Assembly: GCF_001488575.1 (NCBI RefSeq) | Contig: NZ_LN831302.1 | Coordinates: 248,001 to 312,000, forward strand | Source of the DNA: Halobacterium hubeiense | Lineage (GTDB): Archaea > Halobacteriota > Halobacteria > Halobacteriales > Halobacteriaceae | Direction of reading: 5' to 3' | DNA length: 64,000 nucleotides | In this document: in pieces, positions 9,462-14,803 of the stretch | Layout: every line of letters starts with the position of its first letter | Numbering within the stretch: the first letter of the stretch is position 1 | Notes under the pieces: generated by a model | The model's input: only the letters and a program-made list of their open reading frames with translations | The model's database searches: none | Told to the model about the DNA's origin: nothing | Made by a program: the position numbers and the translations under genes

Positions 9462-11651
9462 ATGGGCCGACGAAAGAAGATTGTCGAAAAGTGCGAACGG
9501 CTGATGGACGAGCCGGAGCAGATCCGGAACATCGCCATCGCCGCGCACGTCGACCACGGGAAGACGACACTGACGGACAACCTGCTGGCCGGCGCCGGCA
9601 TGATCTCCGAGGACACCGCGGGCGAACAGCTCGCGATGGACACGGAGGAAGACGAGCAGGAGCGCGGCATCACCATCGACGCCGCGAACGTCTCCATGAC
9701 CCACGAGTACGAGGGCGAAGACCACCTCATCAACCTCATCGACACGCCCGGCCACGTCGACTTCGGCGGCGACGTGACCCGTGCGATGCGCGCCGTCGAC
9801 GGCGCGCTCGTCGTGGTGGACGCCGTCGAGGGCGCGATGCCCCAGACGGAGACGGTGCTCCGGCAGGCGCTGCGCGAGGGCGTCAAGCCGACGCTGTTCA
9901 TCAACAAGGTCGACCGCCTCATCTCGGAGCTCCAGGAGGGGCCCGAGGAGATGCAGGAGCGCCTCCTGAGCGTTATCCGCGAGGTCAACGAGCTCATCCG
10001 CGGGATGACCGAGGAGATGGACGACATCACCGAGGACTGGACGGTCTCCGTCGAGGGCGGCACCGTCGGCTTCGGCTCCGCACTCTACAAGTGGGGCGTC
10101 TCGATGCCGTCGATGCAGCGCACGGGCATGGACTTCGGCGACATCATGGAGCTCGAACGCGCCGACAAGCGCCAGGAGCTCCACGAGCGCACGCCGCTGT
10201 CGGACGTCGTCCTCGACATGGTCTGTGAGCACTTCCCGGACCCCATCGAGGCCCAGCCCCACCGCATCCCGCGCATCTGGCGGGGCGACGCGGACTCCGA
10301 AATCGCGGACACGATGCGGATGGTCAACGAGGACGGCGAAGTCGTCCTGATGGTCACCGACATCGGCATCGACCCCCACGCCGGCGAAATCGCCGCGGGC
10401 CGCGTCTTCTCCGGCACGCTGGAGAAGGGCCAGGAGCTGTACGTCTCCGGGACCGCGGGCAAGAACCGCATCCAGAGCGTCGGCATCTACATGGGTGGCG
10501 AGCGCGAGGAAGTGGACGAAGTTCCCGCCGGGAACATCGCCGCCGTCACCGGCCTCAAGGACGCCATCGCCGGCTCGACGGTGTCCAGCGTCGAGATGAC
10601 GCCGTTCGAGTCCATCGAACACATCTCGGAACCGGTCATCACGAAGTCCGTCGAGGCGCAGAACATGGACGACCTGCCGAAGCTCATCGAGACGCTCCAG
10701 CAGGTCGCCAAGGAAGACCCCACCATCCAGATCGAGATCAACGAGGACACCGGCGAACACCTCATCTCCGGGCAGGGTGAACTCCACCTCGAAGTCATCA
10801 CCCAGCGCATCGAGCGCAACCAGGGCATCCCCGTGAATACGGGCGAACCCATCGTCGTCTTCCGCGAGTCCCCGACCAGCGACTCCCGCGAGGTCGAGGG
10901 CGTCTCCCCGAACCGCCACAACAAGTTCTACATCACCATCGAGCAGCTCGACGACGACGTCCTCGAGCAGCTCCGCCTCGGCAACGTCACGATGGACATG
11001 CCCGAGCAGGAGCGCCGCGAGACGCTCCAGGACGCCGGCATGGAGAAGGATACCTCCCAGAACGTCGAGAACATCATCGGGAAGAACATCTTCATCGACG
11101 ACACGAAGGGTATCCAGCACCTCAACGAGACGATGGAACTCGTCGTCGAAGGCCTCGAAGAAGCCCTCGGTGACGGTCCGCTCGCCGCCGAGCCCGTCGA
11201 GGGCGCGCTCATCCGCCTCCACGACGCTCGCCTCCACGAGGACGCCATCCACCGCGGCCCCGCGCAGGTCATCCCGGCCGTCCGCGACGCCGTCCACCGC
11301 GGCCTCATGGACGCCGAGATCCGCCTGCTCGAGCCGATTCAGGACGTCCGCATCGACGTCCCCTCCGAACACATGGGCGCCGCGTCCGGCGAGATTCAGG
11401 GTCGCCGCGGCCGCGTCGACGACATGTACCAGGAAGGCGGCATGATGGTCGTCGAGGGCATCGCGCCCGTCGAAGAGATGATCGGCTTCTCCAGCGACAT
11501 CCGCTCGGCCACCGAAGGCCGCGCATCCTGGAACACGGAGAACGCCGGCTTCCGCGTCATGGCCGACAACCTCCAGCCCGAGATCATCAAGCAGATTCGA
11601 GAACGCAAGGGCATGAAGACCGAGCTGCCCGAGCAGATCGACTACTTCTAA
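9462..11651 (+). CDS. fusA: Translation elongation factor EF-2
   Basis: The archaeal translocase GTPase, 729 residues. G-motifs are visible: [10 protein letters not shown] (P-loop, near residue 27), the ERGITI switch I, DTPGHVDF and NKVD. Toward the C-terminus, [14 protein letters not shown] contains the His that is converted to diphthamide in archaea and eukaryotes, so a diphthamide pathway is expected elsewhere in the genome. The sequence ends at DYF, the usual halophile terminus. The gene has its own promoter and is followed by a strong hairpin terminator. Nothing looks truncated. Confidence 0.98.
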
Positions 11652-11656
11652 GTACC

Positions 11657-11691
11657 TTTTTACGCGGTTCGCGCGGTGAACCGCGTAAAAA
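11657..11691. terminator. strong bidirectional hairpin after EF-2
   Basis: Six bases after the EF-2 stop, TTTTTACGCGGTTC and GAACCGCGTAAAAA form a perfect 14-base-pair stem with a seven-base loop. The flanking T and A runs would act as a T-tract on either strand. The sequence continues into the TCTACGCTAAAAAA motif shared with other intergenic sites. Confidence 0.75.
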
Positions 11692-11800
11692 TCTACGCTA
11701 AAAAACCGCAACCGGCTGCGGAATCTCACGGTTCTCTCTGTGCGTTCACTCGGCGACCAGCGTGACCGCTATGCATCGGTAGGATTTGTGCGGGCCGAAG

Positions 11801-11810
11801 GCTTATAGCG
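11801..11810 (+). promoter_or_regulatory. TATA box of the ACT-homoserine dehydrogenase operon
   Basis: GCTTATAGCG is a good haloarchaeal TATA box. It predicts a transcription start at about 11830, roughly 107 bases before the ATG of the ACT gene but only about four bases before the ATG of a short leader frame at 11834. Confidence 0.6.
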
Positions 11811-11833
11811 CGAACGACCCCGAGTGAGAGTGT

Positions 11834-11944
11834 ATGCACGCAGGCAGACGCGCCCGGCGTGGTATCGGCACGGAGCGACAGCACTCGCGCTCGCAGCCGA
11901 CAACAACAGCCGGGGCGTCGCCAGCGGGGGGAGACGATGAGTGA
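11834..11944 (+). CDS. putative 36-residue leader peptide with three consecutive Thr codons
   Basis: An ATG lies almost exactly at the predicted start of transcription, so it could be translated as a leaderless message. It encodes 36 residues, basic at the N-terminus and with Pro-Thr-Thr-Thr-Ala at residues 22-26, the three threonines written ACA ACA ACA at 11900-11908, an uncommon choice here where ACC and ACG dominate. Its TGA overlaps the start of the ACT gene by eight bases, allowing coupled re-initiation. The sequence does not look like an ordinary conserved protein. It may be a regulatory leader for threonine-family amino acid synthesis; this is inference. Confidence 0.4.
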   Translation: MHAGRRARRGIGTERQHSRSQPTTTAGASPAGGDDE

Positions 11945-12458
11945 GGCCGACGACCGCGCGCACACGCTCCGCCTGGAGCTCGTCGACGAGCCCGGCGAGC
12001 TGTTGAGCGCGCTCTCCCCCATCGCGGAGAACGGCGGCAACCTCCTCTCGATCTTCCACGAGCGCGGGTCGCTGACGCCCCGCGGCTACATCCCCGTGGA
12101 GGTCGACCTGGAGTGTTCGCCCGAGCGCTTCGAGCACATCGTGGACGCGCTCCGGGACGCCGGCGTCACCATCATCCAGGCGGACTCCGAGCGGTACGGC
12201 GAGGCCGTCAGCGTCCTGCTGGTCGGGGACCTCGTGGACACTGACCTCTCCGATACGCTCGCGGCACTCGAGGAGTGTGGGAGCGCGACGGTCGCGGACT
12301 TCTCGCTGACCACCGAGAAGGGCACGGAGGGCGTCTCCAGCGCGCGCGTCCGGCTGGCCATCGAGTCCGGGAGCACGGAGCGCGCGCTCGAACAGGTCCG
12401 GGACGTCGCGGCGCAGAAAGACCTCTCCGTCGTGGAGCCGCTCGTGGGGGAACTATGA
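11937..12458 (+). CDS. ACT-domain amino-acid-binding regulator
   Basis: A 173-residue protein. The first half is a clear ACT domain (LRLELVDEPGELLSALSPIAENGGN), a fold that binds amino acids and controls biosynthetic enzymes; the second half resembles another regulatory module with the same secondary-structure pattern. It overlaps homoserine dehydrogenase by four bases (ATGA), a pairing usual in halophiles, and probably acts as the detached allosteric sensor of that enzyme, which lacks an ACT domain of its own. I chose the ATG at 11937 (MSEADDRAHT) rather than upstream GTG, because the upstream residues are low-complexity Arg/Gln. Confidence 0.85.
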   Translation: MSEADDRAHTLRLELVDEPGELLSALSPIAENGGNLLSIFHERGSLTPRGYIPVEVDLECSPERFEHIVDALRDAGVTIIQADSERYGEAVSVLLVGDLVDTDLSDTLAALEECGSATVADFSLTTEKGTEGVSSARVRLAIESGSTERALEQVRDVAAQKDLSVVEPLVGEL

Positions 12459-13396
12459 GACTGGCCGTGATGGGCGCCGGCGACGTCGGCCGGTCGGTCG
12501 CGGAGCTCGCCGGCGAGTACGGCCACACGGTGACGGCGTTCGCAGACTCCGCGAGCGCCGCCGTCAACCCCGACGGCATCGACGTCGACGCGGCGCTCGC
12601 CCACAAGGACGACGTCGGGCGCGTCGGCGAAGGCGACCCGGCGGACGCGCTCGGTGCGGAGTACGACGCGCTCGTGGAGGCGACGCCGACGACGCTCGGC
12701 GACGCCCACCCGGGCTTCGAGCACGTGCGCGCGGCGCTGGAGGCCGACCGCCACGCCGTCCTCGCGAACAAGGGCCCGGTCGCCGAGCGCTACGACGACC
12801 TCCGCGAACTGGAGGCCGACAGCGACGGGTCGATTCGCTTCGAGGCGACCGTCGCGGGCGCCATCCCCGCGCTGTCGACCATCGACGGCGTCGGCGCCGA
12901 GCGCGTCACCGCCGCGCGGGGCGTGCTCAACGGCACGGCGAACTTCATCCTGACGCGGATGGCCACGGACGGCCTCGACTACGAGCACGTGCTCGCGGAG
13001 GCCCAGGACCTCGGCGTCGCGGAAGCCGACCCGACGTTCGACGTGGAGGGGACCGACGCCGCGCTGAAGTGCGCGATTCTCGCGAACGTCATCCACGGCG
13101 GCGGCTACTCTCTGGAGGACGTGGACGTCGAGGGCATCACGGACGTGCCGCCGTCGGCGCTGGAGCTCGCCGCCGAGGACGGCCGGACGGTCCGGCTCAT
13201 CGGGGAAGTCACCGAGGACGGCGCCCGCGTGGGCCCGCGGCTCGTCCCCGAGAATCACACGCTGGCGGTGTCCGGGACGATGAACATCGTCCAGCTGGAG
13301 ACCGAGCACGCCGGCCGCCTGAACCTCTCCGGGCGGGGGGCGGGCGGCCCCGAGACGGCGACCGCGGTGTTGAGCGACGTCGACCGGCTCTCGTAG
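12455..13396 (+). CDS. hom: Homoserine dehydrogenase
   Basis: Reduces aspartate semialdehyde to homoserine with NAD(P)H, the branch point toward threonine and methionine. The protein has 313 residues. An N-terminal Rossmann motif reads VMGAGDVGRSVAEL. The catalytic region has ANKGPVAERYDDL and FEATVAGAIPALSTI, followed by the hallmark GVLNGTANFILTRM and the EADPTFDVEGTDAALK segment, which contains the Lys and Asp used in hydride transfer. The C-terminal ACT domain of many bacterial enzymes is absent; the adjacent ACT protein probably takes that role. The gene is coupled to it through a four-base overlap. Confidence 0.95.
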   Translation: MRLAVMGAGDVGRSVAELAGEYGHTVTAFADSASAAVNPDGIDVDAALAHKDDVGRVGEGDPADALGAEYDALVEATPTTLGDAHPGFEHVRAALEADRHAVLANKGPVAERYDDLRELEADSDGSIRFEATVAGAIPALSTIDGVGAERVTAARGVLNGTANFILTRMATDGLDYEHVLAEAQDLGVAEADPTFDVEGTDAALKCAILANVIHGGGYSLEDVDVEGITDVPPSALELAAEDGRTVRLIGEVTEDGARVGPRLVPENHTLAVSGTMNIVQLETEHAGRLNLSGRGAGGPETATAVLSDVDRLS

Positions 13397-13476
13397 CGCG
13401 AACCCGCCGGGGTCGTGTGGCGTGTTGCCACAAACCCCGAGACGGCGGGCGGGTGGTGCTGAGTGCGTACCGAAAT

Positions 13477-13486
13477 GGTTTTAGTG
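13477..13486 (+). promoter_or_regulatory. TATA-like box of the EF-1alpha/S10 operon
   Basis: GGTTTTAGTG lies about 55 bases upstream of the EF-1alpha ATG. It predicts a short leader of about 30 bases containing the inverted repeat GCGCGCC-TTT-CGCGCG near 13515, unusual in a genome where most genes look leaderless. Confidence 0.5.
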
Positions 13487-13537
13487 CGAACTGCCGAATG
13501 ATTCCCACAGAGCGCGCCTTTCGCGCGATACTAGACA

Positions 13538-14803
13538 ATGAGCGACGAACGACACCAGAACCTGGCCGTCATTGGCCACGTCGACCACGGCAAGAGCACG
13601 ATGGTCGGGCGCCTCCTCTACGAAACGGGGAGCGTTCCCGAGCACGTCATCGAACAGCACAAAGAAGAAGCCGAGGAGAAGGGCAAGGGCGGATTCGAGT
13701 TCGCCTACGTCATGGACAACCTCGCCGAAGAGCGTGAGCGCGGGGTCACCATCGACATCGCCCACCAGGAATTCAGCACCGACGAGTACGAGTTCACTAT
13801 CGTCGACTGTCCTGGTCACCGCGACTTCGTGAAGAACATGATTACGGGTGCGTCCCAGGCGGACAACGCCGTCCTCGTCGTCGCCGCCGACGACGGTGTC
13901 GCGCCCCAGACCCGCGAGCACGTGTTCCTCTCGCGGACGCTCGGCATCGACGAACTCATCGTCGCTGTCAACAAGATGGACATCGTCGACTACGACGAGT
14001 CCAAATACAACCAGGTCGTCTCCGACGTCAAGGACCTGTTCGGTCAGGTCGGCTTCGCGACCGAGGACGCCTCGTTCATCGCGACGTCCGCCTTCGAGGG
14101 CGACAACGTCGCCGACCACTCCGACAACACCCCCTGGTACGACGGCCCGACGCTGCTGGAGGCCCTCAACGACCTCCCCGAGCCGTCCCCGCCGACGGAC
14201 ACCGACCTCCGTCTGCCCATCCAGGACGTCTACACCATCTCCGGCATCGGTACCGTCCCCGTCGGACGTATCGAGACCGGTGTGATGAACACGGGCGACA
14301 ACGTCAGCTTCCAGCCGTCTGACGTCGGTGGCGAGGTCAAGACCATCGAGATGCACCACGAAGAGGTGCCCAAGGCCGAGCCCGGTGACAACGTCGGGTT
14401 CAACGTCCGCGGCATCGGCAAGGACGACATCCGTCGCGGTGACGTCTGTGGTCCCGCCGACGACCCGCCGAGCGTCGCCGAGACGTTCACGGCGCAGATC
14501 GTCGTGATGCAGCACCCCTCGGTCATCACGGCGGGCTACACGCCGGTCTTCCACGCCCACACGGCGCAGGTCGCGTGTACCATCGAGTCCATCGACAAGA
14601 AGATGGACCCCTCCTCGGGCGAGACCCAGGAGGAGAACCCGGACTTCATCCAGTCCGGCGACGCTGCGGTCGTCACCGTGCGCCCGCAGAAGCCCCTCAG
14701 CATCGAGCCGTCCTCCGAGATTCCGGAGCTGGGCTCGTTCGCCGTCCGCGACATGGGTCAGACCATCGCCGCCGGCAAGGTCCTGGACGTCAACGAAGCC
14801 TAA
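13538..14803 (+). CDS. tuf: Translation elongation factor EF-1alpha
   Basis: The GTPase that delivers aminoacyl-tRNA to the ribosome, 421 residues as expected for halophiles. Nucleotide-binding motifs are GHVDHGKST (near residue 11), [12 protein letters not shown] and NKMD. Domains 2 and 3 are recognisable from the [13 protein letters not shown] and [14 protein letters not shown] segments. It is followed three bases later by rps10, the normal archaeal operon. An insertion rich in Asp/Glu is in line with halophile adaptation. Confidence 0.98.

Follow-up and report, generated by a model that had tools for sequence, protein, structure and literature searches.

The ACT-hom locus

The stretch of DNA analysed here (64,000 nucleotides, referred to below as the window) comes from Halobacterium, with Halobacterium sp. 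KA-4 and CBA1126 among its close relatives. Within it, a threonine-pathway operon starts with an unannotated mini-gene, the leader ORF or uORF. The features of the locus are as follows.

9462-11651: fusA (EF-2), upstream of the leader promoter
11795-11807, + strand: promoter core, a BRE-like CCGAAGG and the TATA box TTATA (11803-11807), read from the sequence and recurring in relatives
11834-11944, + strand: leader ORF (uORF) of 36 codons, with its ATG at a leaderless position and its stop overlapping the ACT start
11865-11900, + strand: predicted hairpin in the uORF, arms 11865-11877 (5') and 11888-11900 (3'), from a predicted fold and a shuffle test
11876-11879, + strand: loop motif C-N-A-C, in which codon positions 1 and 3 are under constraint and position 2 is free
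11900-11908, + strand: putative control codons ACA ACA ACA (Thr 23-25), read from the sequence, with aligned ACA in relatives
11926-11933, + strand: SD-like sequence GGGGGGAG, upstream of the ACT start and still inside the uORF, near its end
11937-12458, + strand: ACT-domain protein, the operon's first main gene (Pfam ACT, 8e-6, slightly below the curated cut-off)
12455-13396, + strand: hom, homoserine dehydrogenase (Pfam Homoserine_dh, 1.7e-53; NCBIfam homoserine dehydrogenase)

The ACT gene and hom overlap by the ATGA at 12455-12458, and the pair is flanked by the genes for EF-2 and EF-1alpha (9462-14803). Domain identity from Pfam and NCBIfam is clear for hom and weak for ACT. The operon's product, as read from these assignments of hom, is homoserine, the precursor of both Thr and Ile. 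The ACT gene was found in all 292 of the 292 genomes of the class that were searched. Second copies of the ACT homologue occur at loci L075 and L076 (G016, G017) and further homologues on plasmid records at L051 and L056 (Haladaptatus), in each case preceded by a short uORF or itself leaderless. Several distant haloarchaea (e.g., L058, L180, and L200) likewise have sequence coding for the EF-2 C terminus 5' of their ACT gene. Directly past the fusA stop in the window is a perfect inverted repeat, TTTTTACGCGGTTC...GAACCGCGTAAAAA (11656-11691), which looks like a two-way terminator or some other element between fusA and the leader.

The leader reading frame

A preliminary description of this DNA had reported a frame of 36 codons at 11834-11944, with ACA at codons 23-25 and an overlap of eight bases with the next gene, and all of these coordinates proved correct. 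The frame translates to MHAGRRARRGIGTERQHSRSQPTTTAGASPAGGDDE*, a basic peptide, and its stop TGA (11942-11944) lies past the ATG of the ACT gene (11937-11939), so that positions 11937-11944 are shared by the two frames. The same description had spoken of a long leader in front of the operon. An ORF does lie upstream of ACT, but its ATG is found 31 nt past the first T of TTATA, which places the uORF at a leaderless-start position. Judging from the position of the TATA box, the 5' end of the transcript would fall at about 11830, and the mRNA is probably effectively leaderless with respect to the small ORF. In relatives, CCGAAGG-CTTATA precedes the uORF ATG by 27-32 nt with a mode of exactly 30 nt, and the TATA-to-ATG spacing over the first 112 uORF loci is likewise 27-32 nt, most often exactly 30.

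Small leaderless ORFs that overlap the following gene are rare, numbering about a dozen in a scan of 2.47 Mb of the same chromosome. Similar leaders in front of other biosynthetic operons were looked for among these candidates, and no product-matching codon run was evident in a scan of this design, which used a crude gene caller and judged the downstream genes by eye only. Small leaderless ORFs whose end runs into a gene start or almost reaches it lie, for example, near 987961, 2215352 (minus), and 738153 (minus) of G000 C1, and encode peptides such as MHDQPAGGSDE and MHCSPEVCDETPPANRGGPAW.

Conservation across haloarchaea

Relatives of the ACT gene were gathered from the genus, the family, named genomes, and the class, and the DNA upstream of them was scanned. 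A uORF was called where an ATG situated 23-32 nt past a TATA-like box opened an ORF ending at the ACT start. On this definition, a uORF is present at the same place, with its stop overlapping or abutting the ACT start, in 134 of 164 haloarchaeal ACT-hom loci. Five further loci, beyond the 134, have a uORF that starts with GTG, several uncalled loci have, on visual inspection, the same layout behind a weak TATA box, and at some others the ACT gene itself is directly leaderless. The stop-to-start offset is -1, -5, -8, +3, or +4 in relatives, and the uORF ranges from 7 to 70 codons, while its start position and stop overlap stay constant.

An overlapping stop is by itself cheap, since stops are scarce in GC-rich DNA and both of the other frames are closed by ATGAGTGA where ACT starts. 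The frame could then be fortuitous, or the ACT gene could truly start upstream, at GTG 11859, with the uORF an artefact. Against either version, start, frame, and codons are conserved across the class, and the remaining non-ACT frame seldom terminates at the ACT start. Shifting the uORF start by 1 or 2 nt gives a stop there in only 0 or 17 of 126 frames, a control to be read descriptively because the loci had been chosen for having the ORF. We regard an explanation of this kind as highly improbable; by comparison of the sequences, the leader frame is not chance. An ACT N-terminal extension from GTG 11859 was considered and rejected, as it is not conserved and the GTG is absent in the close relative L002.

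A long form of the uORF, with recognizable shared sequence, is found in 24 genus-level groups (Halobacteriaceae, Haloferacaceae, and relatives). The uORFs of other families are short (7-18 codons) and have no Thr/Ile run, which suggests that the basic role of the uORF may be coupling alone. Short-form loci (e.g., L045, L053, L086, L136, and L149) have the same start position and stop overlap, and often end in GGAGGTG-type SD codons.

Probable coupling of the leader to the ACT gene

Of the 134 loci, 98.5% have a strong SD ahead of ACT; at a control site the figure is 22%. A stop/start overlap and an SD lying in the last part of the upstream frame are the marks of a termination-reinitiation pair, and together they point to coupling of this type between the uORF and ACT.

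It is conceivable that coupling is all that the uORF provides: it would load ribosomes and feed ACT by termination-reinitiation, and its Thr/Ile codons would have no sensing role. The premise is that leaderless mRNAs are translated well and SD-leadered ones poorly. Short uORFs without a Thr/Ile run retain the leaderless start, the SD, and the overlap in many families, and a few genera have a leaderless ACT gene, so that a sensor is not essential. Overlapping genes of Haloferax volcanii fit as well, being strictly coupled by termination-reinitiation with an SD that has no role in de novo initiation; the dependence of downstream on upstream translation was shown there for nine pairs, the uORF-ACT pair not among them (PMC6728339). 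Left unexplained by such a role are the much longer ORF of 24 genus-level groups, with ACA at one place, and the identity of the variable codons next to it, which specify the pathway's own products. We consider an ORF devoted purely to coupling a serious possibility, albeit an unlikely one.

Putative control codons

In the long form, the codons in question are rare ones. ACA makes up 3.5% of 31,404 Thr codons in the 2.47 Mb of chromosome, and ATT 17% of Ile codons in the Halobacterium genome. ACA stands at the aligned position in 21 of the 24 genus-level groups and one codon off in the other three, and the codons beside it are often Thr or Ile. The site varies among ACA, ACG, ATT, and ATC, giving a peptide that reads PTTT in the window, PTTII in L011, STITGI in g7, PITII in the g45 and g37 groups (where ATT and ATC vary), PITIT in Halobonum, and STTTV in L192; Halarchaeum has ACG ACA. 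In Halorubrum and some other groups the Thr codons are down to one or two, scattered and at a greater distance from the ACT start. With one vote per genus-level group, Thr and Ile sum to 60.4 over a span of five codons vs. 22.5 +/- 3.6 when the same peptides are rotated, an excess that carries no clean probability because the groups are related and the counts are not independent.

Spacing tells of the reading frame as well. Measured without regard to frame, the uORF ATG and the motif immediately preceding the control codons are 60, 63, 66, 69, or 72 nt apart in 38 of the 38 cases in which the motif was found, and spacing in multiples of 3 is the signature of a coding frame. The distance from the motif to the ACT start follows no multiple-of-3 rule.

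Conservation of the frame and of its Thr codons in related halophiles had been proposed as a check on the preliminary description, and the comparison bears it out, with the frame kept across haloarchaea and Thr codons (Ile in several genera) at one position in 24 genus-level groups. What chiefly suggests sensing of tRNA charging is that these codons match the pathway in many lineages. We favor, at a probability of roughly 55%, a reading in which the leader-peptide ORF controls the ACT-hom operon and reads the supply of Thr (in some genera Ile) through its codons.

RNA structure in the leader

The predicted hairpin of the uORF is formed by the pairs UCGGC/GCCGA and GAGCG/CGCUC and ends at the first control codon. 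Over 22 genera, the pairing between the 18 nt leading up to the control codon and the segment 22-50 nt upstream is better than in shuffles (mean z -1.94, t = -6.0). Halogeometricum-like genera, g7, and Halarchaeum show the hairpin clearly; in Halobacterium its prediction scores are modest, and in Haloferax, g33, g39, and g77 it is weak. Covariation in the broad alignment is moderate, with 28 doubly changed cells vs. 16.4 after shuffling; two slid controls gave similar covariation scores with far fewer paired cells. RNAalifold found no consensus structure in the broad alignment, the hairpin showing in subsets and in region-wise tests, and a search of Rfam 15 returned no significant covariance-model match, only sub-threshold microRNA models outside the leader. 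The loop motif C-N-A-C lies 42 or 45 nt past the uORF ATG in 49 of 51 long-form leaders with the motif. The middle base of this codon is free and the rest is kept, which indicates constraint at the RNA level.

The selection on RNA seen in this loop codon, together with the support for the hairpin over 22 genera, could mean that hairpin and loop are themselves the sensor, an element recognized by a protein or a metabolite (through autoregulation by the ACT protein, for example), with the ORF acting mainly as a coupling frame. Such an element would have to be reconciled with the weakness of the hairpin in several genera and with the RNAalifold and Rfam results, and both the frame-keeping spacing and the product-matching codons point to translation instead. 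We find this reading rather improbable. A sensor at the level of the nascent chain would be still another arrangement, in which a Thr-responsive ribosome arrest would be caused by the peptide, with no sensing of tRNA charging by the codons. Some residues before the Thr codons do recur (RxxGTEP-like) and would sit in the exit tunnel, but they coincide with the 5' arm and loop of the hairpin, and they differ (RVDAKP, RDGCER, and RISIER) in leaders that retain the RNA motif, leaving this a very slim possibility.

Three models of an RNA switch were tested and none was supported. A competing downstream hairpin (CCGACA..UGUCGG), present in some Haloferax, is at shuffle level as a general switch (mean z -0.13 over 22 genera). 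Pairing of the C-N-A-C loop with the SD region, as an anti-SD, gives the best SD-region partner on average, with a mean z of only -0.17 vs. shuffled loops over the 22 genera. Release of the SD by a stalled ribosome is not seen either, as opening it costs 11.9 kcal/mol in the full leader and about 11.5 once a ribosome occupies the control codons, with no step between them.

Comparison with known leaders

In thrL and the other bacterial amino-acid attenuators, a short ORF lies between promoter and operon and contains a cluster of end-product codons and a hairpin-forming stretch. The haloarchaeal uORF resembles this type in several respects. It is a short ORF between the promoter and the first structural gene of a Thr-pathway operon (11834-11944 in the window; 134 of 164 loci), the genes 3' of it make the amino acid (hom, by Pfam and NCBIfam), and its end-product codons, Thr or in some genera Ile, are clustered after a hairpin-forming stretch (three ACA codons in the window; 24 genus-level groups; sparse in Halorubrum). 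It differs from this type in being archaeal, in its leaderless start, in a stop that overlaps the first gene, and in having fewer control codons. No U-tract terminator is present in 11834-11936 and no competing hairpin was found; of the mutually exclusive antiterminator and terminator structures, only the upstream hairpin is supported. The uORF is thus not filed as a thrL-type attenuator, because the terminator/antiterminator feature was tested for and is absent. The likeness to the threonine leader peptide drawn in the preliminary description survives in the ORF and in its conserved, product-matching Thr codons; it does not extend to a thrL-type RNA switch, which was looked for and not found.

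A second comparison is with ermC-type translational attenuators, in which a ribosome stalled on the leader frees a masked SD and the trigger is a drug. The uORF is similar in that a stalled ribosome on it could alter the translation or stability of the next gene, and dissimilar in that SD release is not seen in the folding and that the trigger would be codon supply rather than a drug.

Within the haloarchaea, the uORF-ACT junction resembles the overlapping gene pairs of H. volcanii (PMC6728339) in its stop/start overlap and in the SD in the end of the upstream frame, and the ACT/hom overlap does so too; in contrast to those pairs, what lies upstream is a mini-ORF, 7-70 codons long and placed at the mRNA 5' end, and its long form has product-matching rare codons. 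Small ORFs upstream of genes have also been reported in H. volcanii, where 16 acidic peptides of 15-31 residues are encoded in 5'-UTRs of 150-250 nt, with no codon run or coupling reported (PMC4983044). These are alike in being small ORFs upstream of haloarchaeal genes, whereas the ACT-hom uORF is basic and conserved across the class. An amino-acid-sensing leader peptide in archaea was not found in the open-access literature searched, which is no proof of novelty.

A possible mechanism

The chances seem to us evenly balanced that the uORF is an archaeal amino-acid-specific leader peptide of a particular kind, a leaderless uORF that would sense the charging of Thr- or Ile-tRNA via rare codons and govern a homoserine dehydrogenase operon through termination-reinitiation, unlike both bacterial transcription attenuation and translational attenuation by SD release. 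From the TATA spacing, ribosomes would enter at the 5'-terminal ATG of the uORF in leaderless style. Going by the anatomy and by the coupling published for Haloferax, they would terminate where the uORF runs into the ACT start codon, reinitiate at that codon aided by the SD, and be handed from ACT to hom in the same way. The rare Thr/Ile codons, about two thirds along the uORF and conserved in their match to the product, would tie transit to the availability of charged Thr- or Ile-tRNA. A ribosome paused on them would cover the 3' arm of the hairpin and keep it open, and the pause would in turn alter the output of the operon.

The sign of this effect is its least certain part. Output would most likely go up when Thr or Ile is short, as in other biosynthetic operons. 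Strict coupling alone would have a stall lower ACT-hom output in starvation, which is odd for a biosynthetic operon. Either stalling would then help in some other way (protection of the mRNA, better reinitiation by the ribosome ahead, or a hairpin-binding protein), or the sign would be unusual. Candidate physical links from pausing to output are reinitiation efficiency, mRNA stability, and a bound protein. We lean to derepression on starvation, the weakest link of the model.

Significance

The uORF is a candidate archaeal counterpart of the bacterial codon-sensing leader peptides, with the anatomy present and conserved across haloarchaea. The arrangement exists in Haloferax species close to the genetic model, and the predictions that it makes are sharp. 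Should Thr sensing fail, a class-wide leaderless uORF with a stop/start overlap would remain, a use of termination-reinitiation that is undescribed in the literature searched. If the proposal is true, organisms whose mRNAs are mostly leaderless can still make use of a leader, by means of a coupled mini-ORF placed in front of the operon.
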